Positions 13,331 to 53,621 of a stretch of 64,000 nt of DNA are shown in pieces; the first letter of the stretch is position 1; each line of letters opens with the position of its first letter. The notes beneath the pieces are model-generated. The model was not told where the DNA came from and made no database searches. It saw nothing but the letters and a program-made list of their open reading frames with translations. A program made the translations under genes and the position numbers. Source of the stretch: Burkholderiales bacterium. GTDB taxonomy: Bacteria > Pseudomonadota > Gammaproteobacteria > Burkholderiales > Burkholderiaceae_C. The DNA lies in assembly GCA_028868855.1 (NCBI GenBank), contig JAGWTR010000008.1, forward strand, positions 1-64,000. The letters are read 5' to 3'.

Positions 13331-13361
13331 GCTGCACTGCACAAAGTGCGTCATGCATCAG
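13331..13361 (+). promoter_or_regulatory. TGCA-rich element upstream of phaZ (shared with parA)
   Basis: GCTGCACTGCACAA followed by AGTGCGTCATGCATCAG lies 65 bases before the phaZ start. The segment 53591-53621 upstream of the orphan parA gene aligns with it without gaps at 24 of 31 positions. GCACT-N6-AGTGC within it is an inverted repeat. TGC-rich repeats are known targets of the PHB regulator PhaR in other bacteria; assignment to PhaR here is inference. Confidence 0.5.
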
Positions 13362-13395
13362 GGACAAGACAAGCTTGCACAACAGAGGTCGCCTT

Positions 13396-14676
13396 ATGCT
13401 CTACCAAATCTACGAAACCAATCGCTCCTGGATCAGCCCGTTTTCCGAATTCGCCAGTGCAGCGTCCAAGTTGTACAGCAACCCTTTGTCGCCATTCGCT
13501 CAAGTTCCCCAAGCGCAGCGGGTGTCGGCCGGTTTTGATTTGGTGCACCGACTGACCAAGGAATACGAAAAACCCGAATTCGGCATCAACAAGGTTGCCA
13601 TCGCCGGTGGCGAGGTCGTGATTCAGGAAAAAGTCGTGGTTGAAAAGCCCTTCTGCCGCCTGCTGCGCTTCAAGCGCTTCACGGACGATGCCAAACTGCT
13701 CTCCATCATGCGTGAGCAGCCTTCCGTGCTGGTGGTGGCCCCCTTGTCTGGCCACCACTCCACCCTGCTGCGCGACACGGTGCGCACCCTGCTGCAGGAC
13801 CACAAGGTCTACATCACCGACTGGGTCGATGCACGCATGGTGCCCGTCGAGGAAGGCCCGTTCCACCTGGACGACTACGTGAATTACGTTCAGGAGTTCA
13901 TCCGCACCATCGGCCCCAAAGTCCATGTGATCTCGGTGTGCCAACCCACGGTGCCGGTGCTGGCCGCCGTCTCCCTGATGGCCAGCCGTGGTGAAAAAAC
14001 CCCTCTGAGCATGACGATGATGGGTGGCCCGATCGACGCCCGCAAATCGCCGACATCGGTCAATAACCTGGCCATGAACAAGAGCTTCGAGTGGTTCGAG
14101 GCCAATGTGATCTACCGCGTGCCGACGAACTACCCAGGTGCCACGCGACGCGTGTACCCCGGCTTCCTGCAGCACACCGGTTTCGTCGCCATGAACCCGG
14201 ACCGTCACCGCGAGTCGCACTACGACTACTTCCTGGACCTGATCCGCGGCGATGACGACAACGCCGATGCGCACCGCCAGTTCTACGACGAGTACAACGC
14301 CGTGCTGGACATGCCTGCCGAGTACTACCTGGAGACCATCAAGACCGTGTTCCAGGATTTTGCGCTGGTCAATGGCACCTGGAAGGTTCGCAACCTTGAA
14401 GGCAAGCCAGAGCTGGTGAGGCCGCAGGACATCAAGACCACCGCCCTGCTGACCGTGGAAGGTGAGCTTGATGACATCTCCGGGGCGGGTCAGACGGAGG
14501 CCGCACACAATTTGTGCTCGGGCATCCCAAAGTCCAAGCAGGAACATTACGTGGTCGAGGGTGCGGGCCACTACGGGATTTTCTCGGGTCGACGCTGGCG
14601 TGAAAAGGCGTACCCGGAGATTCGTGCCTTCATCGCCGCCCACAACAACAACAAGCCCCCAGCCAAGACCAAATAA
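13396..14676 (+). CDS. phaZ: Intracellular poly(3-hydroxybutyrate) depolymerase
   Basis: The 426-residue protein mobilises stored PHB and matches the Cupriavidus necator PhaZa1 family. Its nucleophile is Cys182 in HVISVCQPTVPVLAA rather than the Ser of extracellular enzymes. Likely partners are the Asp in VEGELDDISG and the His in GAGHYGIFSG. There is no signal peptide, which fits a cytoplasmic granule-bound enzyme. The chosen ATG (MLYQIYETNRSW) is the family start; a longer in-frame ORF from 13081 runs back through the terminator and the end of the aminotransferase gene and is spurious. A TGCA-rich element lies upstream. No other pha gene is in the window. Confidence 0.94.
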   Translation: MLYQIYETNRSWISPFSEFASAASKLYSNPLSPFAQVPQAQRVSAGFDLVHRLTKEYEKPEFGINKVAIAGGEVVIQEKVVVEKPFCRLLRFKRFTDDAKLLSIMREQPSVLVVAPLSGHHSTLLRDTVRTLLQDHKVYITDWVDARMVPVEEGPFHLDDYVNYVQEFIRTIGPKVHVISVCQPTVPVLAAVSLMASRGEKTPLSMTMMGGPIDARKSPTSVNNLAMNKSFEWFEANVIYRVPTNYPGATRRVYPGFLQHTGFVAMNPDRHRESHYDYFLDLIRGDDDNADAHRQFYDEYNAVLDMPAEYYLETIKTVFQDFALVNGTWKVRNLEGKPELVRPQDIKTTALLTVEGELDDISGAGQTEAAHNLCSGIPKSKQEHYVVEGAGHYGIFSGRRWREKAYPEIRAFIAAHNNNKPPAKTK

Positions 14677-14712
14677 GACGGGTCAATTGATGCTGGCATA
14701 GACTGACGGCCC

Positions 14713-15375
14713 ATGCTGGACGCCGAACAGATCAACGCCCTTTTGCCGCAAACGCAGTGCACGCGCTGCGGCTACCCCGACTGTGCCAGCTACGCCCAGG
14801 CCGTTGCCTGCGGCGAGGCGGGCATCAACCAATGTCCGCCCGGGGGCGAGGAAGGCATCCGCCGCCTGGCGCAAGCCACCGGTTTGCCCGCCCTGCCCTT
14901 GAGCGACGTGCATGGCATCGAAGGCCCGCGCCACCTGGTCGTCATTGACGAAGACTGGTGCATCGGATGCACCTTGTGCATCAAGGCTTGCCCGGTCGAT
15001 TGCATCGTGGGTGCGCCCAAGCAGATGCACACCGTGATCGAAGACCTGTGCACCGGTTGCGAGTTGTGCATCCCTGTGTGCCCTGTCGACTGCATCTCCG
15101 TGGTGCCAGCGCATGAGACGCAGCCCGCTCCCACGGGCTGGGCGGCCTGGAGCGAGCCCCTGGCCCTGCAGGCCCGCCAACGCCATGCCACGCACACCGT
15201 CCGTTTGGTCAAGGCCCAGCACGACAATGAGGTGCGATTGCAGGCCAAGGCCGAGCGCAAGCTGGCCAACCTGACACAGGAGTCTCGCCTGACCGACCCC
15301 GTACAACTGGACCAGAAGCGCGCCGTGATCGAAGCCGCACTGGCCCGTGCCCGGGCGCGCCGCAGCAGCAACTGA
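14713..15375 (+). CDS. rnfB: RnfB-like ferredoxin-type electron transport protein
   Basis: The 220-residue protein has an N-terminal Fe-S motif ([30 protein letters not shown] spans residues 16-45, with four cluster Cys) and then two classical 4Fe-4S motifs, [15 protein letters not shown] and [15 protein letters not shown]. The C-terminal part is charged and helical. It corresponds to the RnfB/RsxB subunit, but no rnfA, C, D, G or E gene is adjacent, so it is a stand-alone form; nth, a Fe-S protein, lies 3.8 kb downstream. What it reduces is not shown by the sequence. The short N-terminus lacks the membrane helix of full-length RnfB. Confidence 0.88.
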
Positions 15376-15418
15376 GCCTCGCCCCGCAACCCTTTGCCCA
15401 TTTTTTTGGAGCCGTCGC

Positions 15419-16504
15419 ATGCCAAACCTGTTCGACCCCATCCACATCGGCGACCTTGACCTCGCCAACCGCCTGGTCATGGCACCCCTCACCCGCAACC
15501 GCGCCGGCCAGAACCAGGTTCCCACCGACCTGATGGTCACCTACTACGAGCAGCGCGCCAATCCGGCCACCGGCGCGGGTTTGATCGTCTCGGAAGCCAC
15601 CCAGATCAGCCCGCAAGGCCAAGGCTACCTGGACACCCCGGGCATCTACAGCGCCGAGCAAGTTGCCGGCTGGCGCAAGGTCACCGATGCGGTGCATGCG
15701 CAAGGCGGAAAGATCGTGGTCCAGCTATGGCACGTGGGTCGCATCTCGCACACCTCGCTGCAACCGGGTGGTGCCGCACCTTTGGCGCCCTCCGCCATCC
15801 AGGCCAATACCAAGACCTTCACGGCCAAGGGCTTTGAGCCCGTCTCCGCGCCGCGCGCGCTGACCCTGGAAGAATTGCCCGGCATCGTCGACCAATACCG
15901 CCGTGCGGCCCGCAATGCCATCACCGCCGGCTTTGACGGCGTGGAGGTGCACGGTGCCAATGGCTATCTGTTGGATCAGTTCTTACGCGATGGCAGCAAC
16001 CACCGCACCGACGCCTACGGCGGATCGATTCAAAACCGCGCCCGCTTGCTGATCGAGGTCATGCAAGCCGTGGTCGACGAGATCGGTGCCAAGCGCACGG
16101 CCATCCGCATCTCACCGGTCACCCCGTCCAACGATGCCCACGACAGCAACCCGCAAGCCTTGTTCAACCACGTGGCCGAGCAGCTGGACAAGCTCCAACT
16201 CTTGTACGTGCATGTGATTGAAGGCGAAACCGGCGGCAAGCGCGACATCGCCCCCTTCGACTACGAGGCACTGCACCATCGCGTACACGCACCATGGATG
16301 GTCAACAACGGCTACAGCCTGGCGCTCGCCGATGACGTGCTGAACCAAGGCGGTGCCGATCTGGTCGCGTTTGGGCGCCCCTTCATCGGCAACCCTGATC
16401 TGGGACGGCGCCTGCGGGACGGCGTGACACTGAATGCCCTCAACCCCGCGACGCTGTATGGCGGCGGAGCGGCAGGCTACACCGACTACCCCGCGATGAG
16501 TTAA
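15419..16504 (+). CDS. nemA: Old Yellow Enzyme-family alkene reductase (NemA-like)
   Basis: The 361-residue FMN enzyme reduces activated C=C bonds (N-ethylmaleimide, enones, nitro compounds) with NAD(P)H. The fold begins with LFDPIHIGDLDLANRLVMAPLTRNRA. The pair that binds the substrate carbonyl is His and Asn in VEVHGANGYLLDQFL, and SNHRTDAYGGSIQNRAR is the family signature. FMN-phosphate residues are in DLVAFGRPFIGNPDL. The ATG at 15419 has GGAG seven bases upstream. It follows rnfB by 43 bp and may share its transcript. Confidence 0.92.
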   Translation: MPNLFDPIHIGDLDLANRLVMAPLTRNRAGQNQVPTDLMVTYYEQRANPATGAGLIVSEATQISPQGQGYLDTPGIYSAEQVAGWRKVTDAVHAQGGKIVVQLWHVGRISHTSLQPGGAAPLAPSAIQANTKTFTAKGFEPVSAPRALTLEELPGIVDQYRRAARNAITAGFDGVEVHGANGYLLDQFLRDGSNHRTDAYGGSIQNRARLLIEVMQAVVDEIGAKRTAIRISPVTPSNDAHDSNPQALFNHVAEQLDKLQLLYVHVIEGETGGKRDIAPFDYEALHHRVHAPWMVNNGYSLALADDVLNQGGADLVAFGRPFIGNPDLGRRLRDGVTLNALNPATLYGGGAAGYTDYPAMS

Positions 16505-16530
16505 ACGCTGTGTGACTTTTGAGACGCTTG

Positions 16531-16600
16531 ACCCCCGAATGAAGGGGTAGATACCCTCATTCAAGGGTCATCAGCATGTCATTTCTGGCCCGCAATATGC
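16531..16600 (+). promoter_or_regulatory. Sigma-54-like promoter preceded by two tandem dyads
   Basis: TGGCCCGCAATATGC (16586-16600) keeps the GG-N10-GC geometry of -24/-12 promoters. Upstream are two adjacent inverted repeats: ACCCCCGAATGAAGGGGT (16531-16548) and ACCCTCATTCAAGGGT (16553-16568). The arrangement resembles an activator site before a sigma-54 promoter, although the dyads are unusually close. A further hairpin (ATGGACA/TGTCCAT, 16612-16638) lies in the predicted leader of the next gene. Confidence 0.45.
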
Positions 16601-16651
16601 ATCCTCATGATATGGACAACGCTTGCGCCGCTGTCCATGAAGTGGAGAGAC

Positions 16652-16879
16652 ATGATGCGCGCCTTAATGAACCTTGCCATTGAACCTACCATGCACCTGT
16701 TCGAGGTGTCTGCCCTGGTCCTCATCGACCCCTCGCAGCAGGCCGTTAAACGGGTGCTCAAGGTGTTGGCCGACACGCCCGTGGGGGCGGTCAAGATCGT
16801 GCGTGACCGCTATCCGCGTTCGCGCGCTCACCAGGTGCTGTCGCAACACGACTTGCCCGAACAGCTGGCCTTGGCCTGA
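16652..16879 (+). CDS. Small protein of unknown function
   Basis: The 75-residue ORF starts at ATGATG with a good ribosome site (GGAGAGA, one base before the first ATG). The predicted product begins MMRALMNLAIEPTMHLFEVSA and ends in HDLPEQLALA. It is a mix of hydrophobic segments and a basic middle (KIVRDRYPRSRAH), with no signal peptide and no motif I recognise. The segment LIDPSQQAVKRVLKVLADTPVGAVKIVRD looks like a genuine alpha/beta protein (positions 22-50). Possible sigma-54 promoter and dyads lie just upstream. A longer start at 16607 exists but has no ribosome site. Reality as a gene is likely; function is unknown. Confidence 0.65.
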   Translation: MMRALMNLAIEPTMHLFEVSALVLIDPSQQAVKRVLKVLADTPVGAVKIVRDRYPRSRAHQVLSQHDLPEQLALA

Positions 16880-16984
16880 TCAATGTGAAGGTCACTTGAA
16901 GCCCGCGGTGCCATCCTCATTTATGCTGGGGTGCTGACGCAAGCAATGCGTCTTATTTTCACTCCACGCCGAGGAAACACCGTG

Positions 16985-17608
16985 ATGACTGCTGAATCCA
17001 CCACCCGTCGCATCAAACGCTGGTTGGGCGCCCTGGCCGCCGCCGCCCTTGTCGTGTCACTGTCAGGTTGCGGGTACAACGATTTCCAGCGCCTGGACGA
17101 ACAGACCAAGTCGGCATGGTCCGAGGTGCTCAATCAGTATCAGCGCCGCGCTGACCTCATCCCCAACATCGTCGCCACGGTCAAGGGTGAAGCCGGCTTT
17201 GAACAGGACACCTTGACCAAGGTGATCGAGGCGCGCGCCAAGGCGACCAGCATCCAGGCCACACCCGAACTGGTCAACAACCCCCAGGCCTTTCAGAAGT
17301 TTCAACAAGCACAAGGCGAACTCAGTGGCGCCTTGTCACGCCTGCTGGTGGTCAGTGAAAACTACCCCAACCTGAGGGCCAATCAGGGCTTCCAGGATTT
17401 GCGCGTGCAGCTCGAAGGCACAGAAAACCGCATCACCGTGGCCCGCAACCGCTACATCCAGACGGTGCAGGAATACAACGTGAAGGCGCGCAGCTTCCCG
17501 ACCAACCTCACCGCCATGGTGTTCAGCTACCAGCCCAAACCCAATTTCACGGTGCAGAACGAGGCCCAGATTTCGGCCCCGCCCGCGGTTGATTTCAACA
17601 AGAAATAA
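16985..17608 (+). CDS. lemA: LemA family lipoprotein
   Basis: The 207-residue protein has a basic N-terminus, a hydrophobic helix and the lipobox LSGC (VVSLSGCGYND), so it is probably a lipid-anchored periplasmic protein. Heptad-like helices follow (LDEQTKSAWSEVLNQYQRR, LIPNIVATVKG), typical of LemA. The ending FSYQPKPNFTVQNEAQISAPPAVDF is conserved in the family. Molecular role is not established. It forms an operon with two TPM-domain genes (12 bp to the next start). The ATG at 16985 follows GAGGAA; a GTG three bases earlier is an alternative. Confidence 0.92.
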   Translation: MTAESTTRRIKRWLGALAAAALVVSLSGCGYNDFQRLDEQTKSAWSEVLNQYQRRADLIPNIVATVKGEAGFEQDTLTKVIEARAKATSIQATPELVNNPQAFQKFQQAQGELSGALSRLLVVSENYPNLRANQGFQDLRVQLEGTENRITVARNRYIQTVQEYNVKARSFPTNLTAMVFSYQPKPNFTVQNEAQISAPPAVDFNKK

Positions 17609-17620
17609 GCGGTTAGCACC

Positions 17621-18592
17621 ATGAGGCAGTCGCTGCTCTCGGCATCGGTGTGGATGCGGGTCTGGAGGCGGATGGCACTGCTGTTCGCCCTGCTGCTGAG
17701 CGGTTTCAGCCCCCCTGGCCTGGCGGCCAACGCCGACGGTGGGGTGCAAGCGGTGCCCCCGCTCACGGCCCGTGTCATCGACCAGACCGCCACCCTCAGC
17801 CAAGAGCAGCGTACAGCGCTGGAGGGCAAGCTGGCGGGCCTTGAAGCCAAGCTCGGGTCGCAACTGGTGGTGCTGATGGTGCCCACCACCTCGCCCGAAG
17901 ACATCGCCGCCTATGGTCAGCGCGTGGCCGACGCCTGGAAGATCGGGCGCCACGACGTCGGCGATGGCCTGCTGATCGTGGTCGCCAAAGATGACCGGCG
18001 TGTGCGCATTGAAGTGGCCAAGACCCTGGAAGGGGCGATTCCGGACCTGGCGGCCAAGCAGATCATCGACCGCGCCATCACACCGGCCTTTCGGGTGGGT
18101 GATTACGCAGGTGGTCTGACTTTGGCGGTCGACCACCTGGAGGCCCGCATCAAAGGCGAAAACCTGCCCTTGCCCACGGCACAGGGCCCCTCAGGTCAGG
18201 GTGACACCGGTTTTGACTGGAATGCTCTGGCCTTGTTTTTGTTCGTGGGGGTGCCCATCATTGGAGGCATCCTGTCGTCGATGCTGGGCCGTAAGGCGGG
18301 ATCCGCGGTGTCTGGCCTGCTGGCCGGCGGACTTGGCTGGTTGGTGAGCACCAGCGTACTGGTGGGGCTGGGTGTGGGCTTTATTTCGGCGGTGGTGGTG
18401 GCGGCCATGGCCGCCAGTGGGGCCTCGCGCGGACGCGGCGGCCCATGGGGCGGTGGCGGATTCGGTGGCGGCGGCTATGGCGGCGGATTTTCGTCTGGTG
18501 GCGGTGGCGGATTTTCGTCTGGTGGCGGTGGCGGATTTTCGTCTGGTGGCGGTGGCGATTTTGGCGGAGGCGGCGCTTCCGGCAACTGGTGA
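17621..18592 (+). CDS. TPM-domain (YgcG-like) membrane protein with glycine-rich tail
   Basis: The 323-residue protein starts with a signal/anchor segment (ALLFALLLSGF), then a TPM domain around residues 45-170 (VIDQTATLSQEQRTALEGKL; GLLIVVAKDDRRVRIEV; AITPAFRVGDYAGGL). Two hydrophobic stretches near residues 206-225 and 233-265 are likely membrane helices. The C-terminus is a Gly/Ser-rich tail (WGGGGFGGGGYGGGF and GGFSSGGG repeats). TPM domains occur in proteins tied to photosystem repair in plants and to envelope stress in bacteria; function here is unknown. Partners are LemA upstream and a soluble TPM protein 4 bp downstream. Confidence 0.88.
   Translation: MRQSLLSASVWMRVWRRMALLFALLLSGFSPPGLAANADGGVQAVPPLTARVIDQTATLSQEQRTALEGKLAGLEAKLGSQLVVLMVPTTSPEDIAAYGQRVADAWKIGRHDVGDGLLIVVAKDDRRVRIEVAKTLEGAIPDLAAKQIIDRAITPAFRVGDYAGGLTLAVDHLEARIKGENLPLPTAQGPSGQGDTGFDWNALALFLFVGVPIIGGILSSMLGRKAGSAVSGLLAGGLGWLVSTSVLVGLGVGFISAVVVAAMAASGASRGRGGPWGGGGFGGGGYGGGFSSGGGGGFSSGGGGGFSSGGGGDFGGGGASGNW
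18482..18553 (+). repeat. Three perfect 24-bp tandem repeats in the TPM gene
   Basis: Three identical in-frame 24-bp units at 18482-18505, 18506-18529 and 18530-18553 each encode GGFSSGGG. A degenerate fourth unit follows (GGDFGGGG). Copy number could vary by slippage without breaking the frame. Confidence 0.95.
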
Positions 18593-18596
18593 GTTC

Positions 18597-19112
18597 ATGA
18601 GCAAGCAAAACCCTTTCCTGCGCTGGGCCAGGCACTTCTGGATGGACCAAGGCCATGCTCGACGCCAACTCAGCCCGGCAGGCCTGCGGCAATTGGAAGA
18701 GCGCGTGCGCGCCAGCGAGGCACGGCACACGGGCGAATTGCGCTTGTGTGTTGAAGGCGGCTTGCATTGGCAGGCCCTCTGGCAAGGCCAGACGGCACGC
18801 ACCCGTGCGTTGGACATGTTCAGCGCTCTGCGTGTCTGGGACACCGAACACAACAACGGCGTGCTGATTTACCTCCTGCTGGCCGACCACCACATCGAAA
18901 TCCTGGCCGACCGGGGCATCATGAATCGCGTCGCCCCGCAAGCCTGGTCGGCCATCGCCAAACACCTGAGCGCCACCTTGCGCGCCGGTCAGTTCGAACA
19001 AGGATTGAACGAGGCCGTGGATGCCGTGACCGACTTGCTCGTCACCCATTTTCCGGCCGATGCTGCGGTGGGTCACCCCAACGAACTGCCCGATCAGGTG
19101 GTGGTGATCTGA
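18597..19112 (+). CDS. TPM-domain protein, soluble partner
   Basis: The 171-residue protein has no signal peptide. It contains a TPM domain: RVRASEARHTGELRLCVEGG, VLIYLLLADHHIEILADRGI and IAKHLSATLRAGQFEQGLNEA are the typical blocks. Its start lies four bases after the preceding TPM gene's stop, so it is translationally linked. Pairs of a membrane TPM protein with a glycine-rich tail and a soluble TPM protein next to lemA recur in Burkholderiales. Function is not known. The ATG at 18597 (MSKQNPFLRWARHFW) was chosen because the frame upstream runs through the glycine-rich repeats of the previous gene. Confidence 0.88.
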   Translation: MSKQNPFLRWARHFWMDQGHARRQLSPAGLRQLEERVRASEARHTGELRLCVEGGLHWQALWQGQTARTRALDMFSALRVWDTEHNNGVLIYLLLADHHIEILADRGIMNRVAPQAWSAIAKHLSATLRAGQFEQGLNEAVDAVTDLLVTHFPADAAVGHPNELPDQVVVI

Positions 19113-19148
19113 ACAGGGAGCGCCCAGCAGGCCCTAGACTTGGCCGCC

Positions 19149-19793
19149 ATGAAAGTTGCCGACATCCCGACCTTCTTCGCCACGCTACACGCAGCCAACC
19201 CCGAACCCAAAACCGAGCTTGAATACAGCACGGATTTTGAGTTACTGACCGCCGTGCTGCTATCAGCTCAAGCCACGGACGTGGGTGTGAACAAGGCCAC
19301 TCGAAAATTATTCCCGGTGGCCAACACGCCCCAGCAATTGTTGGATCTGGGCATGGACGGGCTGTGTGATTACATCAAGACCATTGGCCTGTACCGCAGC
19401 AAAGCCAAGCACCTGCTGGAAACCTGCCGCATCCTGATCAATCAGCATGGGGGACAGGTGCCGCGCACGCGCGAGGCCCTGGAGGCCTTGCCCGGCGTGG
19501 GCCGCAAAACGGCCAATGTGGTGCTGAACGTGGCCTTTGGCGAGCCCACCTGCGCGGTCGACACGCACATCTTTCGTGTCAGCAACCGCACCGGCCTGGC
19601 CTCAGGCAAGACGCCGCTGGAGGTGGAGAACAAGCTGATGAAGCGAATCCCGCCTGAGTTCAAGCTGCACGCCCACCACTGGCTGATACTGCACGGGCGC
19701 TATGTGTGTCAGGCGCGCAAGCCACGCTGCTGGGAATGCAGCGTGGCCACCTGGTGTTCGTTCAAACCCAAGACACCGGCACCGGCGCCTTGA
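19149..19793 (+). CDS. nth: Endonuclease III (DNA glycosylase/AP lyase)
   Basis: The 214-residue enzyme removes oxidised pyrimidines. The helix-hairpin-helix LPGVGRKTANVVLNVAF carries catalytic Lys120, and Asp138 lies in AVDTHIFRVSNRTGL. The 4Fe-4S ligands are Cys187, 194, 197 and 203 (C-x6-C-x2-C-x5-C), the same numbers as in E. coli Nth. The ATG at 19149 (MKVADIP) was chosen over a TTG nine bases upstream. The gene ends 18 bp from the convergent GDSL hydrolase gene. Confidence 0.97.
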   Translation: MKVADIPTFFATLHAANPEPKTELEYSTDFELLTAVLLSAQATDVGVNKATRKLFPVANTPQQLLDLGMDGLCDYIKTIGLYRSKAKHLLETCRILINQHGGQVPRTREALEALPGVGRKTANVVLNVAFGEPTCAVDTHIFRVSNRTGLASGKTPLEVENKLMKRIPPEFKLHAHHWLILHGRYVCQARKPRCWECSVATWCSFKPKTPAPAP

Positions 19794-19811
19794 AGCCTCG
19801 ACCCGGATGGC

Positions 19812-20786
19812 TCAAACGCGACGGCGAGACACCACCACGCCCACCAGCATCAAACCCACCAGCGCCAGACCGGTTGTTTCAGGCTCAGGAACGGCCGCCG
19901 CCATGGCGTGACCCACCGCATCATGCACACCGGCTGTCGGGTGCACGTTGTCCCAAAGGAAGTACTTCGTGGAATCAGAGCACAGGGTGCCGCCGTTTGT
20001 CCCAAAGTAATTGCCCGACCAGCACCCCGTCGTGACATTGCCGCCCTGGGCTGTCAGGTCGGAACGGACCTGAGCCAGAACGCTCCCGACATCAAAGATG
20101 TGGATATTGGAGCCGGCCAAGGCACCTTGCGTCGCCACCAAGGCATTGGACAGTGCCCCGTTGAAACCCAGGGAAAACTGGTGCGCCTGGGCCTGTGCGG
20201 TAGCGCCTGCGGCGATCACCTCCGCCGAGTACGACATATCGGGAAGCAAGGGCACGAAGAACTCGCGCGCGCCCGAGCCATAGAGTTGCCCCAACTCACT
20301 GGTCAAATTGGCGATCACCGTGCCGGCCGTCGCTACCGGATTGGTCGACGAGAAGAAGTCATTGCCGCCGCCCCACAGGAAGTACAAGGCCGATGCATCG
20401 GCTGTCTTGCCTTGGGACGCCAAGCCCCCGGTGAACGCATTGACCTGGCCTTGCAGCCCGGTGTTGTCGAGCAAACCAGGCAGGGGGATTCGATTGCTCA
20501 CACCAGTCAGCGCGCCACCGTAGGCATAGTCCACCAAGGAAACGCCCAAGGTTTGTGCCATCACCTCCACCGCGACGGGGCCATTGCTGAAGCGGCCATT
20601 GAAATACGGCGCGGCAGGAATGCCCGCACCCAAGGCGGGTTGCGTGCGGCTGAAAAGGTTGCCGTTGTCAGACAGGCTGTCGCCAAAAGCGATGATCTGG
20701 CTGTAGGCCGCCTGGGCCGAAGAAAACGGCGAAGCCAGCAGGACGGCGACGGTGCCGATGGATGCCAAGGTGGAGCTAAAACGCAT
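19812..20786 (-). CDS. Secreted GDSL/SGNH hydrolase with PEP-CTERM sorting signal
   Basis: The 324-residue protein has a signal peptide (MRFSSTLASIGTVAVLLA, probable cleavage after AQA at residue 27). The SGNH blocks are FGDSLSDNGN (Ser37), GGGNDFF and DNVHPT (Asp/His). It ends in a PEP-CTERM sorting signal: VPEPE at 299-303, a hydrophobic helix, and SRRRV. Such signals are processed by exosortase/EpsH, so the organism should have that system elsewhere, usually with exopolysaccharide genes. It is probably an esterase or lipase at the cell surface; the substrate is unknown. GGGGAA precedes the ATG at 20786. The frame extends upstream without a plausible start. Confidence 0.92.
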   Translation of the reverse strand: MRFSSTLASIGTVAVLLASPFSSAQAAYSQIIAFGDSLSDNGNLFSRTQPALGAGIPAAPYFNGRFSNGPVAVEVMAQTLGVSLVDYAYGGALTGVSNRIPLPGLLDNTGLQGQVNAFTGGLASQGKTADASALYFLWGGGNDFFSSTNPVATAGTVIANLTSELGQLYGSGAREFFVPLLPDMSYSAEVIAAGATAQAQAHQFSLGFNGALSNALVATQGALAGSNIHIFDVGSVLAQVRSDLTAQGGNVTTGCWSGNYFGTNGGTLCSDSTKYFLWDNVHPTAGVHDAVGHAMAAAVPEPETTGLALVGLMLVGVVVSRRRV

Positions 20787-20886
20787 GGAAGTTCCCCGTG
20801 AATGTTGCATTTCAAGAAAACGAAACCATAGCATTGGCCGGAATGCCGAGCACTGCCGTGAGGCCCCCAAGATAGGGGTACGACCG

Positions 20887-21807
20887 TCAGTCCTGGTGCA
20901 AGCCTTCGCGCACCGTGGGGTAGCGCAAGGGCACCTTCAACTCATTTTTCAAACGGTGGTTGATCAGGCGGCGCGACTCGCTCAAGAAGGACATCTGCAG
21001 GGGCGACAACGCTCGCTCGGCCTCGGCCCGGCTCAGGCGAGGCGGATGCGGCAGGCCGCACAGATCGGCCACCAGATCGAAGTAATCGCCCATCAACTGG
21101 TCGTTGTCATCACAGGCATGCACGACACGCCCGGGCCGCCCTCGCCACAGCGCGGCCACGCAGGCGCGCGCCAGGTCGTCAGCGTGGATGTGGTTGGTGT
21201 AGACATCATCGCTCTGGCACAGCACCGGCGATCCTTTGAGCACACGCTCGCACGGATGGCCGCCCTCGCGGTCCACGGCGTAGATGCCGGGGATGCGCAA
21301 GATGCTGATGCGGCTGCCGTGCGCCATGGCCTGTCGGCGACCCCACCAGCGCAGCAGCGACTCGGCGTGCACGCGGCGATGCGCCCTCGGCGTGGCCGGC
21401 CGCACGGCTCGCGTTTCGTCAAAGCGTGCGCCACCCGCGTCCCCATAGACCCCTGTGGTGCTGCCGTACACCAGGCTGCGCACCTGCCCACGCAAGGACA
21501 AGGCATTGAGCAGGTGGCGTGTGCGCGGATCCGCCTCACCCTGCCCTGGTGGCGGCGCCAGGTGCACCACCCAGGTGGCCAGGCCGGCCAGACGGCCCAA
21601 GGTATCGGGGCGATCCAGATCGCCCAGCAGCGGCACCACTCCGCAGGCCCGCAAGGACGCCGCCCGCTCCAGCTGGGTGGTCAGCGCCAGCACCCGGCAG
21701 CGGGGCAACAACTGCCGCGCCACGCGCAGCCCGACGTCGCCGCAACCCACGATCAAAATGCGACTTTGGCGAAAGCGTGATGAACGGCTCGGAGCAGGGT
21801 TGTACAT
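20887..21807 (-). CDS. NAD(P)-binding SDR-family epimerase-like protein
   Basis: The 306-residue protein has an N-terminal Rossmann motif ILIVGCGDVGLRVARQLL (residues 17-34) and the extended-SDR flow: LLGDLDRPDTL, WVVHLAPPPGQG, SLVYGSTTGVYGD, then ILRIPGIYAVDREGG. In the catalytic region the usual Y-x3-K is replaced by RRVHAESLLRWW, so it may be an atypical SDR without classical catalysis. It resembles YeeZ-type proteins, which are poorly characterised. The ATG at 21807 was taken; a longer frame runs on the antisense of the next gene. It is divergent from the reductase gene at 21874. Confidence 0.85.
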   Translation of the reverse strand: MYNPAPSRSSRFRQSRILIVGCGDVGLRVARQLLPRCRVLALTTQLERAASLRACGVVPLLGDLDRPDTLGRLAGLATWVVHLAPPPGQGEADPRTRHLLNALSLRGQVRSLVYGSTTGVYGDAGGARFDETRAVRPATPRAHRRVHAESLLRWWGRRQAMAHGSRISILRIPGIYAVDREGGHPCERVLKGSPVLCQSDDVYTNHIHADDLARACVAALWRGRPGRVVHACDDNDQLMGDYFDLVADLCGLPHPPRLSRAEAERALSPLQMSFLSESRRLINHRLKNELKVPLRYPTVREGLHQD

Positions 21808-21873
21808 GGCAGGCAAGCAAGGCGGGAGGCTGAGGGACAATTGGGGGGATTTTGACCGTTGTCGAGTGAGTTC

Positions 21874-42883: not shown

Positions 42884-42900
42884 TGTCAAAGGATCGCCCC

Positions 42901-44019
<1,119 letters not shown>

Positions 44020-44030
44020 GCAGGCGCACC

Positions 44031-44867: not shown

Positions 44868-44883
44868 ACGCATCAAGGACCGG

Positions 44884-47800
44884 TCATGAGCCGCTGGCCG
44901 CGCTGCTGCTCTCGGGCATCCACAATTCAATCACGCCCGGACGCCGGTTGAGCGTGTCGGGCAACTCGCGAATCCAGACTTGGCCGGGCTCATTGGAGGT
45001 CACCCAAGGCTGGCCAATGAGGCGTGACAAGGCCTGCGCACAAGCGCGGCTGTTCGGGTCGTGCAGAACGAAGGTGGGCTGGGGCCAGGGTGCGGGGCGG
45101 CGCTGCTGACGCAGCTCGGCACTGCGGGTCACGTTTTCAATGGGCGCCACCTGGACCAGGCCCGTGGTTTGTGTCTGCAAGGTTTGTCGAAGTGCATTGG
45201 CGGCCAGCCGAGAGGCCTCGTCATAAATCTGCAGGTACAGCGTGGTCTGCCCCTGCGCACGCTGACAGGCCTTGAAAGGATGGCTGGGTGGCATGACGGC
45301 AGGCGGCGCTGACGACCTGCCCTGCTTGACCGCGCCCCATCCTTGCCAGACTTGAGACAACTGCGCCAGCACCGCCTGTGCCGCATGGGCTTGCTCCGTG
45401 GGCGACGAACCAGGGTGCCAGTAGTTCAAAGCGGTGTTCTCGGTGACAGGTTTGAGGGCCAAGGCACAGAGGTCATTGCGAACACGTTGTTGGGATGCGG
45501 TGCAATTACCAGGCACGCTGGCAGCCTGGGTGCAGTGCTCGGCAATGCGCGTGGCCAGACGCTCCACCCCCGCACGCTCCAGAGGCCTCAGGATGGCACT
45601 GTGACGCAAGTCCAGCAGCAGGGTTTCGGCCTGCGTGACAACGTGCTCGGGCACCTGTGCGCAAGTCGCATCGAAATTATTCAACCCCTTGGACACCTCG
45701 ATGAACAACTGGTGCGCGTCCGCCCGTGCATCGTTCTCCTGGCGCTGCACCTGGTCGGCGATCTGCCACAGGGACAATAGCAAGGTGCCCGAGGCGCCCA
45801 AGCCCAAGGTGGTGCCAATCGCTGTGGCACGCGCAGTGCGGCGCCACAGCGGCTCATCAACGCCTGGTGCACTGCTGACCTTTTCCTCACGCAATCGGGC
45901 AGCGATCTTGATGCCATGGTGGGCAGGACTGCGCCAGCCAGGCAGTTGCGAAAGCCAGGTGTCGTTCAGCGCCTTGCCAAAGTCTTCTCCCAGCCGGTGA
46001 TAGCTCTCCCACTGGGCTTCGTCAAAGTCTTGATCGCTGGTCGGCTCATGCGGAAATGCCTCATGCTTTCGCGCGTATGCCAACACATCCACATCCAGCG
46101 CGTTGTGCAGATTGGGTTTGACGATCAGCAAGGTGCCCTCGGGCCGAATCGCCGTGGTCGGCCTGCCCTGCGCATTCAGGGGGCCGGGCCGTTCGTGATA
46201 ACGAATGCGCGCCAACAACACGCCTCGGCACGAATGGTTGTCCCCCATGTCTTCGGGCGACAGCACCGTCAGCTCGGTTCCGCACAGCGTGAACAAGCGC
46301 CGTGCTTCATCGTTGGAATAAAAATCGATTTCAGCGCCAAAGTCGATGCGCGCCTTGCGGACCAGGTTTTCCAGGTCGCCGAACTGATAGCCAACATCGC
46401 AACTGGCATCCGACAGGATGATGAAATCCAGCTCGCGCTTGAGCAGCGCATACACACCGGTGTTCTCAAAATGCCCACCGTCGGACAGATACCACCACGG
46501 CCGGTCTCGGCCAAAAAAAGTGGCCGACGCTTCACTGGCCAGCATCAAGGGTTTGGGCAGAAAGTGCCAACCCAGGCGACTCAGCCAGCGCAACTCGACC
46601 CGCTTGTAAGGCGCTTTGACCCAGTAGCCCAGGCGAACCCCCAGGAAGTACAGCAGCAAGGCCAGTCCGCGCGACGTGTAGGCCCCCGCGCCCGGTGAGG
46701 CCGCGGCCCCCGAGATCGCCACCCAGCGTCCCAGCGTGCCCATGTCATGCCACGGCTTCAAGGCAATGAACTGCGAGGGGCCCAGCTCCAGACCACGCCA
46801 CGAGGCGGTCACCGCGGTTCCCTTGCGGTCGGCGTTGTACAGCCCGCTCTCGTCATCCCGAGTCTGGTTCAAGGACGTGTTGACGAGGTGGATCGGGCCT
46901 CCTTCGGTTTCGGGGTGGTAGTTGCTGAGACCCGTGTCATCGCCCGCCACCACCGAGGTCACATCAGAATGACTGCCCATGTGATCGGCCAGGCGCCGCT
47001 TCACATTGCCCACCGCCAGGTAGGCGCGAGTCAGACGGGCCCGATAGAAGCTGTGCAGCGACGAGGTGTTGGGCATCTGCGCATTGCCCGCCGTCAGCAG
47101 CACCCACAGGAACCACACGCTGGCCACCATGGCCGCACGCATCCATGCGGGCGTGTTGATCAGCACCCTGAACGTGTCGGGCGCGAACACGAACCACTGC
47201 ATCAGCACCAACCACCCCATCACCAACGCGAGCAGGCCGAACAAGCCACCCAGGTCGACCAACCGGGGCCACCAATCCCGGGCATGCCCGCCCGCGTCAG
47301 AGGCCATTTGCTGCAGGGGTTGCGCCATGGTCCGCAAGCTCAAAGCCAGCAAGCCCCCCAAGCCCAGACCGCTCCACACGTAATCGTTGCCAGCCTGCAG
47401 CTCTTCCAGAACCCACCAACTCACCACGTCCAGAGCCCCCATCCCCAGGATCGCCAAGGCACCCAGCGTCACCACACGCAAGGCCGCCGTCAAATGGTTG
47501 CGCACGCGGGCCACCGACAAGGCATAGGGCTCAGGGCTCAACCAGACCACCCCCTGCACAGTGGCTTGCCCAATCAGCAGGGACATCAGGGCCAGCACAG
47601 CGGCACCCACCGAGTTCAGGCCGTCGCGCACGGGGTTCAGTGCTTGATGCGCCAGCAAGGCACGCACCAGCGCATAGGCCGCCAGCGCGCCGCCCAGCAG
47701 GAACAGCATTTCGGTCAGTGCAGGACCAACAGCGCGCCCCCCGGGATTCGGTGCGTCGCGGGCCGCCCAGTAGCCCGCGATCAGGCCGGGGGCGGTCGCC

Positions 47801-48471
47801 ATCCAAAAGGCCAAGGCCACCACCCACCAAGGCGTCTGCCAGCGCTGCCACCCGACCGAGTTGAGCACCTGCGTGGTGTGCTGCCACAAATGAGGCAGCA
47901 GCACCACCAGACCCAGCAACAGGCACGCCACCATGAACTCGGCGTGAATGGCCAGCAAGGCCCGCAAATAGGTGACGGCGGCAATGCCGTAGTCTCGTGA
48001 CCCTCCCGGCGACAAGTAACGCCCATTGCGACGCAGCCACTCCAGCACGGGCGATGCGCTGTCGGCCATCAAGGCCTGTGCGCGACGCATGCCATAGGTC
48101 GACACCAGACGGCCGAACATGCCGCCGGTATAGCCCCCGCCAGACACTGTTGACAAATAGTCCAGCCGACCCAGCAGCCCATGGTTGACCAGCGTGCGAT
48201 GGGCGTTCGCCACCGGGCCCGCAGCATCGTCTCGGTGGTTCTCGGCCATGCCCCGCATCAGCCCCAGCGCGAAGGTCGCGCTGCGCACGCCTCCACCCGA
48301 CAACGCCAGACCCACGCGAGGCAGACCACCTTCCGCAGCCTGATCATCATCCGCCACGCTGCCAGGCGCCTCGTCCAGCACTTTGCGGCGACGCGCCAGC
48401 ACCGCAGCCTGTTCGGCCTGCATCAAGGCCGACCATGCGTCACCCAGCTCACCTGCTTTGACTGATGCCAT
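44884..48471 (-). CDS. Large patatin-like phospholipase with internal membrane domain
   Basis: The 1195-residue protein opens with a patatin oxyanion motif LALSGGGVRSATF (residues 56-68), then Ser110 in YLSTVSGGGYTGG as the probable nucleophile. About eight hydrophobic helices follow between residues 174 and 463, then a soluble segment and the acid motif YLSDGGHFENTG, with Asp664 as the second dyad residue. A further membrane helix (TLGLGASGTLLLSLWQI) lies near residue 870, followed by a long C-terminal domain ending in PESSSAASGS. The dyad is thus split by a membrane insert. The ATG at 48471 (MASVKAGE) follows GGGAG; the ATG at 48492 is an alternative. Substrate and role are unknown. Confidence 0.85.
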   Translation of the reverse strand: MASVKAGELGDAWSALMQAEQAAVLARRRKVLDEAPGSVADDDQAAEGGLPRVGLALSGGGVRSATFALGLMRGMAENHRDDAAGPVANAHRTLVNHGLLGRLDYLSTVSGGGYTGGMFGRLVSTYGMRRAQALMADSASPVLEWLRRNGRYLSPGGSRDYGIAAVTYLRALLAIHAEFMVACLLLGLVVLLPHLWQHTTQVLNSVGWQRWQTPWWVVALAFWMATAPGLIAGYWAARDAPNPGGRAVGPALTEMLFLLGGALAAYALVRALLAHQALNPVRDGLNSVGAAVLALMSLLIGQATVQGVVWLSPEPYALSVARVRNHLTAALRVVTLGALAILGMGALDVVSWWVLEELQAGNDYVWSGLGLGGLLALSLRTMAQPLQQMASDAGGHARDWWPRLVDLGGLFGLLALVMGWLVLMQWFVFAPDTFRVLINTPAWMRAAMVASVWFLWVLLTAGNAQMPNTSSLHSFYRARLTRAYLAVGNVKRRLADHMGSHSDVTSVVAGDDTGLSNYHPETEGGPIHLVNTSLNQTRDDESGLYNADRKGTAVTASWRGLELGPSQFIALKPWHDMGTLGRWVAISGAAASPGAGAYTSRGLALLLYFLGVRLGYWVKAPYKRVELRWLSRLGWHFLPKPLMLASEASATFFGRDRPWWYLSDGGHFENTGVYALLKRELDFIILSDASCDVGYQFGDLENLVRKARIDFGAEIDFYSNDEARRLFTLCGTELTVLSPEDMGDNHSCRGVLLARIRYHERPGPLNAQGRPTTAIRPEGTLLIVKPNLHNALDVDVLAYARKHEAFPHEPTSDQDFDEAQWESYHRLGEDFGKALNDTWLSQLPGWRSPAHHGIKIAARLREEKVSSAPGVDEPLWRRTARATAIGTTLGLGASGTLLLSLWQIADQVQRQENDARADAHQLFIEVSKGLNNFDATCAQVPEHVVTQAETLLLDLRHSAILRPLERAGVERLATRIAEHCTQAASVPGNCTASQQRVRNDLCALALKPVTENTALNYWHPGSSPTEQAHAAQAVLAQLSQVWQGWGAVKQGRSSAPPAVMPPSHPFKACQRAQGQTTLYLQIYDEASRLAANALRQTLQTQTTGLVQVAPIENVTRSAELRQQRRPAPWPQPTFVLHDPNSRACAQALSRLIGQPWVTSNEPGQVWIRELPDTLNRRPGVIELWMPESSSAASGS

Positions 48472-48588
48472 GCGCACTCCCGTGCCGCTCATCCCTGCAG
48501 GGACGACTCCCTGGCAATACTGCTGCATTTTTAAGCACCTGCCAATGCCAGCATGGCCATAAATTAGGGGGGCCCCGATAATCGCGGC

Positions 48589-50028
48589 ATGAGCACCCCC
48601 ACCCCGCAAGACCTCGCCGCCCAGACCACGGCCGCCAAGACCGCCGATCACCCCTTCAGCCTGCTGCCCCTGGCGCCCGCCATGCTGGCCAATCTGCAAC
48701 AGCTGGGTTACCTGAACATGACGCCGATCCAGGCGGCCAGCCTGCCCTTCGCCCTGGCCGGCCAGGACCTGATCGCCCAGGCCAAGACCGGCAGCGGCAA
48801 GACCGCCGCCTTCGCCTTGGCCCTTTTGTCGCGCCTGGACGTGCGACGCTTTGCCGTGCAGACCCTCGTGCTGTGCCCCACGCGCGAGCTGGCTGACCAG
48901 GTCACGCAAGAGATCCGCCGCCTGGCGCGCGCCGAAGAAAACATCAAGATCCTGACCCTGTGCGGCGGCAGCACCATGCGCCCGCAAATGGCCAGCCTGG
49001 AGCACGGCGCGCACATCGTGGTCGGCACGCCCGGCCGCATCATGGACCACCTCGAACGCGGCAGCCTGAACCTGTCCGCCCTGAACACCCTGGTGCTCGA
49101 CGAGGCCGATCGCATGCTGGACATGGGCTTCTTCGACGACATCGTGACGGTGGCCAAACAGTGTCCCAAGGAACGTCAGACGCTGCTGTTCTCGGCCACC
49201 TACCCCGAAGGCATCGCCAAGCTCAGCCAGCAATTCCTGCGCAACCCAAAAGAAGTCAAGGTGCAGGGCACCCACGAAGCCAGCAAGATCCGTCAGCGCT
49301 GGTACGAAGTCGAGCGCGAGACCCGCCTGGACGCGGTCTCCAAGCTGTTGCTGCACTACCGCCCGGCCAGCACGATTGCCTTTTGCAACACCAAGCAGCA
49401 ATGCCGCGACCTGGTCGATGTGTTGAGCGCACAGGGCATCGAAGCCATTGCCCTGCATGGCGATCTGGAACAGCGCGACCGTGATCAGGTGCTAATCCAG
49501 TTCGCCAACCGCAGTTGCTCCGTGCTCGTGGCCACCGACGTCGCCGCGCGCGGCCTGGACATTGCCCAACTGGAAGCCGTGATCAACGTCGACGTGACGC
49601 CCGACCCCGAAGTACACATCCACCGCATCGGCCGCACGGGTCGCGGCGACGCCGAAGGCTGGGCCCTGAACCTGGCCAGCCTGGACGAGATGGGCCGCGT
49701 GGGCAACATTGAAGTGATGCAGGGACGCGAATCCGAATGGCACCCGCTCAACGAGCTGACCCCGGCCAGCAAGGAGCCCCTGCTGCCCCCCATGATCACC
49801 CTGCAGATCCTGGGCGGTCGCAAGGAAAAAATCCGCCCTGGCGACGTGCTGGGCGCCCTGACCGGGGACGCCGGGTTTGCCGGCAGCCAGATCGGCAAAA
49901 TCAATGTGACCGACTTTCACACCTACGTCGCGGTGGAGCGCAGCATTGCCCGGCAAGCCGTGAGCAAGCTCTCCAGCGGCAAAGTCAAGGGCAAGAAGGT
50001 GAAGGTGCGCTTCCTGAACGAACTGTGA
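48589..50028 (+). CDS. dbpA: ATP-dependent RNA helicase DbpA
   Basis: The 479-residue DEAD-box helicase acts in 50S ribosome assembly on 23S rRNA hairpin 92. Visible motifs are [10 protein letters not shown] (Q motif), [20 protein letters not shown] ([10 protein letters not shown]), SAT, and HRIGRTGRG. The C-terminal domain with [18 protein letters not shown] matches the DbpA RNA-binding domain that confers specificity for 23S rRNA. It is divergent from the patatin gene across about 120 bp. Confidence 0.96.
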
Positions 50029-50131
50029 AGCCCCCCACAAAGGCAGATCAGCTACCCCTACTGTAAATAGGGCCATGGCTTTGGGTCAAAAGTGGACAAT
50101 AGAGGGTTGTCCTCCGATTGTCCCGCCCGCC

Positions 50132-52504
50132 ATGTCCGTCTCAGTTCCTGCCATCACCGTCCCACGCGCCGACAAGCCCCTGAACGGCTACCGGCCGTAT
50201 TGGGCCAAGCGCTTTGGCACGGCCAAATTCCTGCCCATGTCCAGGGAAGAGATGAGCGAACTCGGCTGGGACAGCTGCGACATCATCATCGTCACCGGCG
50301 ACGCCTATGTCGACCACCCCAGCTTCGGCATGGCCGTCATCGGCCGCACGCTCGAAGCACAGGGCTTTCGCGTGGGCATCATCGCGCAGCCGGACTGGCA
50401 AAGCGCCGACCCCTTCAAGGTGCTGGGCAAGCCCAACCTGTTCTGGGCCGTGGCCGCGGGCAACATGGACTCGATGATCAACGGCTACACGGCTGATCGC
50501 AAGATCCGCAGCGACGACGCCTACACCCCGGGCGGCGTGGCCGGCAAGCGCCCCGACCGGGCGTCGCTCGTCTATGCCCAACGTTGCAAGGAAGCCTTCC
50601 CCGACGTGCCCATCATCATGGGCGGCATCGAGGCCTCGCTGCGCCGCATCGCGCACTACGACTACTGGCAGGACAAGGTGCGGCGCTCGATCCTGGCGGA
50701 TGCCAAGGCTGACCTGCTGCTGTTTGGCAATGCCGAACGCGCCATTGTCGAAGTGGCGCACCGCCTGGCGGCCCGCGAGCCCATCGAGTCCATCACCGAT
50801 GTGCGCGGCACCTCGTTCATGCGCCGCACCAACGACCCCACCGCCGAAGGCTGGTTCGAACTGGACTCGTCCGAAGTGGACATGCCTGGTCGCGTCGACG
50901 AACACATCAACCCCTACCAGAGCACCTCCGAGCAAGCCCAAGCCCAGGGCAGCACCTGCGCCAAAGAAGACGCGCAAGCACAGGGCGCCACCAGCATGGG
51001 CAGCAACGTCAAGCCCATCACCTTCGTGCGCAGCAACGTGGACAAGCCCACTGGCAAGATCAACATGCCGCCACGTGAGCGCACGGTGATCCGCCTGCCC
51101 TCGTATGAACAGGTCAAAAGCGACCCCGTGCTTTACGCCCACGCCAACCGCGTGCTGCACCTGGAAACCAACCCCGGCAACGCGCGCGCCTTGGTTCAGG
51201 CCCATGCGCACCGCGACGTCTGGATCAACCCGCCGCCCATCCCGCTCACCACGGCCGAGATGGACTTCACCTTTGACCTGCCCTACGCGCGCGCGCCCCA
51301 CCCCGCCTATGCCGACGCCAACGGCAGCCACGATGGCGAGACCAAGATTCCCTCCTGGGAAATGATCCGACTGAGCGTGAACATCATGCGCGGCTGCTTT
51401 GGTGGCTGCACCTTCTGCTCCATCACCGAGCACGAAGGCCGCATCATCCAGAGCCGCTCCGAAGACTCGGTCATCAAGGAAATCGAAGCCATCCGCGACA
51501 GCGTCAAAGGCTTCACCGGCGTCATCTCCGACCTGGGCGGCCCCACCGCCAACATGTACCGCCTGGGTTGCAAATCACCCGAGATCGAAGCGGCCTGCCG
51601 CAAGCCCTCGTGCGTGTACCCCGACGTCTGCTCCAATCTGAACACCAACCACGACCCGCTGATCAAGATGTACCGCCGCGCGCGCACCTTGAAGGGCATC
51701 AAGAAGATCCTGATCAGCTCGGGCTTGCGCTACGACCTGGCGATCCGATCGCCCGAGTACGTCAAGGAACTGGTCACCCACCACGTGGGCGGCTACCTCA
51801 AGATCGCGCCCGAGCACACCGAGGAAGGCCCGCTCACCAAGATGATGAAACCGGGCATCGGCAACTACGACCGCTTCAAGCAGATGTTTGAAAAGTTCAC
51901 CGAAGAGGCCGGCAAGAAGCAGTACCTGATCCCCTACTTCATCGCCGCCCACCCCGGCACCAGTGATGAAGACATGATGAACCTGGCCCTCTGGCTCAAG
52001 CGCAACGGCTTCAAGGCTGACCAGGTGCAGACCTTCTACCCCTCGCCCATGGCCACGGCCACGGCGATGTACCACTCCGGGCGCAACCCACTGCGCAAGG
52101 TCACGCGCGACAGCGAAGCCGTCGACATCGTGCGTGGTGACAAACGCCGTCGCCTGCACAAGGCCTTCTTGCGCTACCACGATGCCAACAACTGGCCGCT
52201 GCTGCGCGAGGCGCTCAAGGCCATGGGCCGCGCCGACCTGATCGGCAACGGCAAGCACCACCTCATCCCGAGCTACCAGCCCGTGACGGACTGCAGCTAC
52301 CAGAGCGCGCGGCGCAAGAATTCGACCCCGGTCGGCGTCAAGACCTCACCGGTGACCAAAGGCCGCATCCTGACCCAGCACACGGGTTTGCCGCCGCGTG
52401 AGACCGGGGCCAGCATCACGCCGACCAAGGCGCTGCGCAGTGGTGGTCACGCGGGCAGCGGTGGCGGACTGGCCAAACCTTTTGCTCGCAAGAAGCCTCG
52501 TTAA
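50132..52504 (+). CDS. ygiQ: YgiQ family radical SAM protein
   Basis: The 790-residue radical SAM protein has Cys422, Cys426 and Cys429 ([10 protein letters not shown]) for the [4Fe-4S] cluster. The N-terminal part shows the cobalamin-binding-like fold of UPF0313 ([34 protein letters not shown]) and the C-terminal part has [19 protein letters not shown] and [18 protein letters not shown], both diagnostic. The reaction is unknown. The ATG at 50132 (MSVSVPAI) was chosen; an ATG at 50075 adds 19 residues. Its stop overlaps the convergent LLM stop at TTAA. Confidence 0.93.
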
Positions 52505-53541
52505 TCCGGCGCGATGCCTGGGCGTGTGATGGCCGTCAGGCCAAACTCCCGCGCCAGCAAGGCATAGGATTGCCGACGCACCGCCGGGTTGTAGGCCCAG
52601 GTGTTGATCACCAATTCATCGAGTTCCAACCGGCCCGCCAGGTGACGCAACTGGGCGCCCACCTGCTCGGCCGTCCCCACAAAGGACTTGCGCCGAAACG
52701 CCTCCACCTCCACGTGTTCATCGGCCGTGAAGCCGCGTGCGGCTATCTCCTCAGGTGACTGCAAGGGCGCCATGACGCCCCGGTTGCGGTCGACACGCCA
52801 GCGGTCGCGGCTCAGGGCGTGGTATTGCGCCTCTTCGGCCGTGTCGGCCACCAGAGCCCAGACACACACGGTGGCCTGCGGGCGCGGATGGCGCTCATTG
52901 GGCTGGTAGAGCGTGGTGTACAGCGTCAGCGCCTGTTCCGCCCCTTCGCCGTCCATGAAAAAATAGGCGAACGCATACGGCAGGCCAAACTGCGCCGCCA
53001 GTTGGGCGCCATAGTCCGAACTGCCCAGCACCCACACTTCGGGCAGGCGGTCAAAACTGCTTTGCAGGTCAACCGGACCGCGCGGGTGCGCCACGATGCC
53101 CCGATGCGGCAAGCCCGTCAGCCAGGCCTGCAGATCGCGCACCTGCTCAGGAAAATTCTCAGCGGCCGCATAGGCATGCGGATTGAGCGCCTGCGCGGTG
53201 CGCACATCCCCCCCTGGCGCGCGGCCCACACCCAGGTCGATGCGGCCCGGCGCCAAGGCATCGAGCACGCGAAATTGCTCGGCCACCTTCAGGGCCGAAT
53301 AGTGCGGCAGCATCACGCCCGCGCTGCCAATGCGGATGCGCCGGGTGCGCGCGGCAATGGCGGCCAACAAAATCTCGGGGGCCGAGCCCACGATCGTGGG
53401 CAGACCATGGTGCTCGCTGAGCCAGAAGCGGTGATAGCCCAGGGCCTCGCAATGCTGCGCCAGGTCCAGCGTGTCCCGAATGGCTTCGTCTTCACCATGG
53501 CCGCTCAAGGCCAGCGATTGATCAAGCACGGACAGTTTCAT
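52501..53541 (-). CDS. LLM class flavin-dependent oxidoreductase
   Basis: The 346-residue protein belongs to the luciferase-like monooxygenase group (MsnO8/YhbW type). Motifs are [57 protein letters not shown] and [14 protein letters not shown]. It has no substrate-specific signature. The ATG at 53541 ([14 protein letters not shown]) was chosen over a longer frame. Its stop codon TAA is read from the same TTAA as the ygiQ stop. It is divergent from parA. Confidence 0.92.
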
Positions 53542-53590
53542 GCCCCAAAGCATAGGCCAAGCGACATCACAACGCCAGGTCGATGGTATT

Positions 53591-53621
53591 GTTGCAGTGC
53601 ACAATGCAGGTCAGGCATCAG
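53591..53621 (+). promoter_or_regulatory. TGCA-rich element upstream of parA (shared with phaZ)
   Basis: GTTGCAGTGCACAA followed by TGCAGGTCAGGCATCAG aligns without gaps with 13331-13361 upstream of phaZ, 24 of 31 identical. It ends 17 bases before the parA ATG and includes TGCACAATGCA. A common regulator is inferred, PhaR being the best candidate because of the phaZ side. Confidence 0.5.

Follow-up and report, generated by a model that had tools for sequence, protein, structure and literature searches.

An orphan parA gene with a predicted PhaR operator shared with phasin and polyhydroxybutyrate depolymerase genes in Burkholderiales

A shared element ahead of phaZ, parA, and phaP

The first 64,000 nucleotides of contig JAGWTR010000008.1 from a Burkholderiales bacterium (the window, by which we mean this whole stretch of DNA) contain two rightward-transcribed genes about 40 kb apart: phaZ, coding for a polyhydroxybutyrate (PHB) depolymerase, and parA, coding for an orphan ParA-family ATPase (Table 1). 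A sequence-only reading of the window had noted a TGCA-rich element upstream of both genes and placed this ParA in a PHB regulon controlled by PhaR; its naming of phaZ as a PHB depolymerase agrees with the family matches. We find that the conserved part of the element is a 17-bp near-palindrome resembling known PhaR operators, that it also precedes the phasin gene phaP, and that it is kept ahead of parA in nearly all relatives within the genus; on these grounds we predict that parA is very probably a PhaR target in this group.

The proposed alignment of positions 13331–13361 with 53591–53621 proved exact when recomputed. The two segments match without gaps at 24/31 positions, are reciprocal best matches within the 64-kb window, and lie 65 nt from the phaZ ATG (13396) and 47 nt from the parA ATG (53638), within the ~70 bases claimed. 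Taken alone the score is not decisive, because when the window's 100-nt upstream regions are compared pairwise (1,485 pairs), one other pair scores 25/31 and another 23/31; none of 4,455 shuffled pairs of upstream regions reaches 22/31 or more. The match is raised above chance by the rarity of its core, TGCANTGCACAA: the 3.40-Mb genome contains it only three times, ahead of phaZ, parA, and the phasin gene phaP (PF09361), and contains no match to a reversed-pattern control. At phaP a second site is found nearer the start. The GCATCAG segment, originally described as belonging to the element, was rejected as a part of it, as the downstream flank is not conserved in relatives, and its share of the 31-bp match is probably accidental, because the palindrome is the sole part kept among them.

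The suggestion that TGC-rich sites of this type are PhaR targets fits the published operators. Compared with the PhaR consensus TGCRNYGCASMA, which was derived with the help of DNase I footprints in Bradyrhizobium diazoefficiens (PMC6201568), neither window site has a mismatch, and each agrees with the Ralstonia eutropha PhaR palindrome YTKNTGCRNYGCANMAR (PMC12849132) at 16/17 positions; PhaR is encoded once in the genome (PF07879, E=1.7e-29). R. eutropha PhaR is reported to repress phaP1 and to be sequestered on nascent granules, leaving phaP1 during polyhydroxyalkanoate (PHA) synthesis (PMC12849132). The last bases of the parA operator form a -10-like CACAAT, and the phaZ operator overlaps a -10-like TATGCT (13328–13333), which in most relatives has a TGCAA-containing -35 element upstream at 17 bp; these positions suit repression. 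CACAAT or CATAAT boxes also precede many operator-less parA orthologues in the Zoogloeaceae.

The same palindromic TGC-RNY-GCA operator is found on phasin and depolymerase genes in the PhaR (AniA) regulons of R. eutropha, Bradyrhizobium, and Sinorhizobium. Unlike those regulons, this genome has no site on phaR or phaC, and no ParA target was found for them in the parts of the open-access literature that were searched, where no title or abstract connects ParA with either PhaR or PHB granules. Operators of the PhaR type are familiar, the novel aspect being a conserved orphan ParA among their predicted targets.

Table 1. Features of the window that are discussed in the text
Feature	Position	Strand	Details
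Predicted PhaR operator of phaZ, ATGCTGCACTGCACAAA	13329..13345	+	1 mismatch to YTKNTGCRNYGCANMAR; kept in 18/18 genus phaZ
phaZ, PHB depolymerase, 426 aa	13396..14676	+	NCBIfam TIGR01849, E=8.7e-182; Pfam PHB_depo_C, E=3.5e-93
LLM-class (MsnO8-type) oxidoreductase, divergent from parA	52501..53541	-	TIGR03558, E=1.9e-111
Predicted PhaR operator of parA, TTGTTGCAGTGCACAAT	53589..53605	+	32 nt before ATG; 1 mismatch to YTKNTGCRNYGCANMAR; core exact to TGCRNYGCASMA
parA, ParA-family ATPase, 256 aa	53638..54408	+	KGGVGKST; Pfam AAA_31, E=1.4e-36
PPK2 polyphosphate kinase gene, ~2 kb from parA	56323-57162	-	PF03976

Genes were called with a home-made caller, which overextended parA and a ptsN-like gene elsewhere in the genome across their sites; these starts were set by hand, that of parA from its orthologues, 80 of which back the position used.

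Conservation of the site and its limits

To count sites among relatives, a YTKNTGCRNYGCANMAR-type 17-mer with at most two mismatches in the upstream region was required. A ParA orthologue was recovered from 29 of the 31 genomes of the genus (the two without are 82% and 53% complete), and the site precedes 28 of these 29 parA genes, 19 with one mismatch and nine with two, the remaining one having three; the genus parA sites begin 45–80 nt before the ATG. In the same 31 genomes it precedes 28/28 phaP orthologues, the last of these loci (L305) having a perfect site, and 18/18 phaZ orthologues have it among the 19 genus genomes searched. Other genes in the parA-orthologue loci served as controls and have a site at the same threshold in 45/746 cases (6%), or in 2/89 when only the genus loci are counted; the former count excludes genes by position, and a variant dropping genus genes with TGCACAAT upstream gave 45/748. 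Letter shuffling gives 1.6–1.9% at two mismatches or fewer. The difference between parA and the control genes has Fisher P values of 2e-30 (against 45/746) and 1e-23 (against 2/89), with related genomes counted as independent. The earlier caution that the link rests on two sites only is overtaken by the third genomic copy before phaP and by this genus-wide conservation, and the placing of ParA in the PhaR regulon is well supported by the element shared among phaP, phaZ, and parA, by its conservation, and by its fit to the consensus.

Alignment of 25 distinct parA promoters on the site gives 1.75 bits per base inside it, a value somewhat inflated by the motif-based alignment, and 0.29 and 0.27 in the flanks. 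The phaZ and phaP promoters have a similar profile, except that the left flank of the phaZ site is also conserved (0.81 bits).

Exact copies of TGCANTGCACAA number 84 distinct sites in the 31 genus genomes (85 matches, one being on both strands), versus 12 for the reversed control, and five of the genomes have none. With no targets presupposed, parA is the most recurrent, accounting for 15 of the 84 sites in 15 genomes; other targets are a phosphoglycerate-mutase-like gene (5), phaZ (3), and phaP (2), and many of the other sites lie within genes or ahead of unrelated genes. The phaP and phaZ genes of the relatives mostly carry consensus variants other than TGCANTGCACAA. The phosphoglycerate-mutase-like gene, which we take to be such from its RHGET motif, is another recurrent target, with TGCANTGCACAA lying 10–25 nt before it in five genus genomes (L227, L232, L252, L266, and L271).

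The site tracks parA, not the neighbouring genes. Among 80 ParA orthologues from a named collection, 72 of whose loci contain at least 1 kb upstream, the LLM gene adjoins parA in one, and parA lies 70–648 nt downstream of minE in 17 (L036, L042, L044, and L045 among them), all 17 having the site. In this wider set, a site with at most two mismatches is present within 150 nt in 37/80, compared with 1.5% for shuffled sequences, and its occurrence varies with the start-residue group: 28/30 for MRY, 5/28 for MRR, 0/15 for Rhodoferax-type MQH/MQY, and 4/7 for the rest. On a tree of the orthologues the presence of the site is clustered, with six label changes versus 28.4 for shuffled labels; here L059 (two mismatches and a broken core) was set as site-less though among the 37, such that the 37 labelled sequences are the other 36 and that of the window. 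The PHB wiring is thus largely limited to one group, comprising Aquabacterium, Leptothrix, Rubrivivax, and Schlegelella, and within the betaproteobacteria it characterises one part only, the ParA itself being older. Because orthologues outside this group mostly have no site, the ancestral role of ParA need not involve PHB.

The ParA protein and its possible cargo

The structural model of ParA (pLDDT 89.8) has Soj/ParA proteins as its closest solved folds (TM up to 0.90) and McdA structures next (6non and 6nop; TM 0.80–0.84 by query), and as modelled the protein is Soj/McdA-like in fold. Thirty-two other aligned sequences, ranging from Sphaerotilaceae to Zoogloeaceae, are 75–86% identical to it, and K9, K14, D36, D38, and KGGVGKST are invariant in all 33, the last being a deviant Walker A motif with its signature lysine (KGGVGK[ST]T). 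The genome encodes its own Soj-like chromosomal-type ParA elsewhere, of the same fold and 33–34% identical; unlike that protein, the ParA studied here belongs to a separate, highly conserved orthologue group, and the Soj-like parA has no site within two mismatches. With McdA of the McdA/McdB carboxysome-positioning system it shares a ParA-type ATPase with a deviant Walker A motif, although its identity to McdA is 22% and the Soj structures fit better. When the 22 largest families of neighbouring genes in the 80 loci were read by eye, no McdB-like gene was recognised beside parA, and none of the neighbour families so read looks like ParB, a reading made with no ParB-directed family search.

We propose that in cells lacking PHB, PhaR would occupy the parA, phaZ, and phaP promoters, lying over the -10 region in the case of parA and phaZ, and would keep the genes off. 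As PHB forms, PhaR would be drawn onto the granule surface, parA, phaZ, and phaP would all be released, and ParA would appear together with phasin as the granules form. A site common to parA and to granule-coat and granule-digesting genes, conserved in many relatives, suggests that ParA works with PHB granules; because it would be co-produced with the granule coat and depolymerase, ParA would most plausibly serve to distribute the granules over the nucleoid, acting as an ATP-dependent, nucleoid-bound distributor much as McdA does with carboxysomes, presumably through a granule-bound partner, for which PhaM is a candidate. PhaR binding, the direction of regulation, the granule cargo, and the partner are steps that we infer. 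Taken whole, a PhaR operator on parA and a ParA that distributes granules are the best explanation we can offer, and we give it an even chance; that ParA acts on PHB granules is, as a claim on its own, possible but a little short of even. More tentatively, we speculate that the group with the wired parA spaces and segregates its PHB granules (carbonosomes) with a dedicated ATP-driven ParA that is made only when PHB exists, the PHB cargo switching on its own transporter by titrating the repressor.

Several observations weigh against this proposal. The two-mismatch threshold is also reached by 6% of unrelated genes, and 43 of the 80 wider orthologues lack the site, including 15/15 of the Rhodoferax type and all those of Zoogloeaceae and Rhodocyclaceae but one weak case; all seven orthologues inspected from plasmid-collection records of Paraburkholderia, Caballeronia, Pseudomonas, and Acinetobacter have no site at three mismatches or fewer. 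The direction of regulation is uncertain, because R. eutropha PhaR can also activate (PMC12849132). Although the phaP promoter carries the site, as expected of a phasin gene in the regulon, those of phaR, phaC1, and phaC2 have none within two mismatches (best 3, 3, and 4), and the best site of phaM has two mismatches, one of them breaking the core, a case that would pass on the threshold alone; the predicted regulon is therefore incomplete. In S. meliloti too, phaR motifs are reported to fall below threshold, and a site on phaR does not appear to be a strict requirement. Further, no homologue of the genome's own PhaZ, PhaP, PhaR, or PhaC turned up around parA in the 80 loci (at most 6 kb per side; 51 of the loci have 5 kb or more on each), no partner gene was recognised among the 22 neighbour families, and no small gene is common to all groups. 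Finally, PhaM, a known granule–nucleoid tether, is already encoded in the genome. The tethers PhaM, PhaF, and PhaH have the same proposed job, that of placing PHB granules on the nucleoid, and unlike the protein studied here are, according to a 2025 review, not homologous to ParA (PMC13052382).

The chief rival accepts parA as a true PhaR target but gives ParA another cargo, be it the nucleoid or a replicon, the division machinery, or polyphosphate granules, such that some lineages would switch ParA on when granules crowd the cell. Site-less ParA orthologues occur in many lineages, including Acinetobacter baumannii at 54% identity, and the position of parA shortly after minE in 17/80 relatives could point to division. 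A role with polyphosphate is suggested by a Pseudomonas veronii plasmid in which a CHAD protein is encoded 100 nt after a 57%-identical ParA (L389:467-2164), CHAD proteins being reported to localise to polyphosphate granules (PMC9239181), and by the PPK2 gene near parA in the window. The ParA–CHAD adjacency is a single case, however, with no CHAD homologue at E 1e-3 in the other loci compared, PPK2 is near parA in 3/80 relatives, and conserved co-regulation with phasin and depolymerase genes is most simply explained by a granule role; we regard a different cargo as a real possibility, if not a probable one.

The remaining explanations concern the site itself. It is improbable that a factor other than PhaR binds the element and co-regulates phaP, phaZ, and parA: phaR itself has no site here and PhaR binding is a prediction, but the agreement is exact to the Bradyrhizobium footprint consensus and 16/17 to the R. 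eutropha palindrome, and a single PhaR is encoded. The divergent LLM oxidoreductase gene shares a 96-bp intergenic region with parA, and the site could in principle serve that gene with parA as a bystander; the sole relative (1/80) with an LLM gene beside parA (L086) has no site within two mismatches, however, and in other gene contexts parA retains the site. We therefore rejected the LLM gene as owner of the site, of which it is probably not a target, and think this reading very improbable. Chance resemblance between two promoters could appeal to the one other upstream pair that scored 25/31, but is rejected by the genome-wide rarity of TGCANTGCACAA, the conservation in the genus, and the control-gene counts, and can be given next to no weight.

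Were ParA indeed a distributor of PHB granules, it would fit a gap in current models. The 2025 review names the tethers PhaM, PhaF, and PhaH, marks a granule-spacing component with a question mark, and states that whether energy is spent on PHB granule spacing remains to be seen (PMC13052382); the main text of a Herbaspirillum granule paper (PMC3783465) contains nothing relevant on ParA, partition, chromosome, or ATPase, an orthologue in that species not having been looked for. As a conserved protein under predicted control of the PHB repressor, this ParA would be a concrete, deletable candidate for granule spacing, with relatives among named isolates. If the proposal is true, one orphan ParA lineage gains a likely cargo, and a cytoskeletal-type gene joins a regulon whose known members are mostly coat, storage, and metabolic genes.

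Other predicted targets in the genome

A broad PHB regulon drawn from TGCRNYGCASMA alone was rejected as too loose, with 101 genomic matches versus 29 for the reversed control. The 17-mer at one mismatch or fewer gives 67 sites versus 19 for its reversed control, and annotation covers the best 50 of the 67 (those with no mismatch first) together with those in DNA otherwise analysed. Seven sites are perfect, and six of these are intergenic (counting the ptsN-like case with its hand-set start), with P 1e-6 for an intergenic share of 7.3%, as estimated from 102 kb. The genes with a perfect 17-mer ahead of them are phaP, the ptsN-like gene, those for a type-2 extracellular-type PHA depolymerase and a patatin-like phospholipase, one with a weak DctM match, and, after dksA, an unclassified gene. 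The depolymerase, of the short-chain PHA kind (NF050059; C3 ~145.0–146.2 kb; L340:316-1473), has its perfect site 28 nt upstream and adds another PHB gene to the predicted regulon.

The ptsN-like gene (PTS-Ntr IIA, PF00359; 0.8 bits below the NCBIfam PtsN cut-off) has a perfect site ~130 nt upstream (C6:69094; L341:1501-1517). Another perfect site lies between a long hypothetical gene and a dksA-like gene, the latter named by eye (C2:423661; L339:1-1467, with the site at 1501-1517). The hypothetical protein has a basic N-terminal region and no match in Pfam and NCBIfam searches, and is possibly a granule or ParA partner. The perfect PhaR-type sites of the patatin-like phospholipase gene and of the gene with the weak DctM match lie 31 nt and 11 nt upstream, respectively (L342 and L337).
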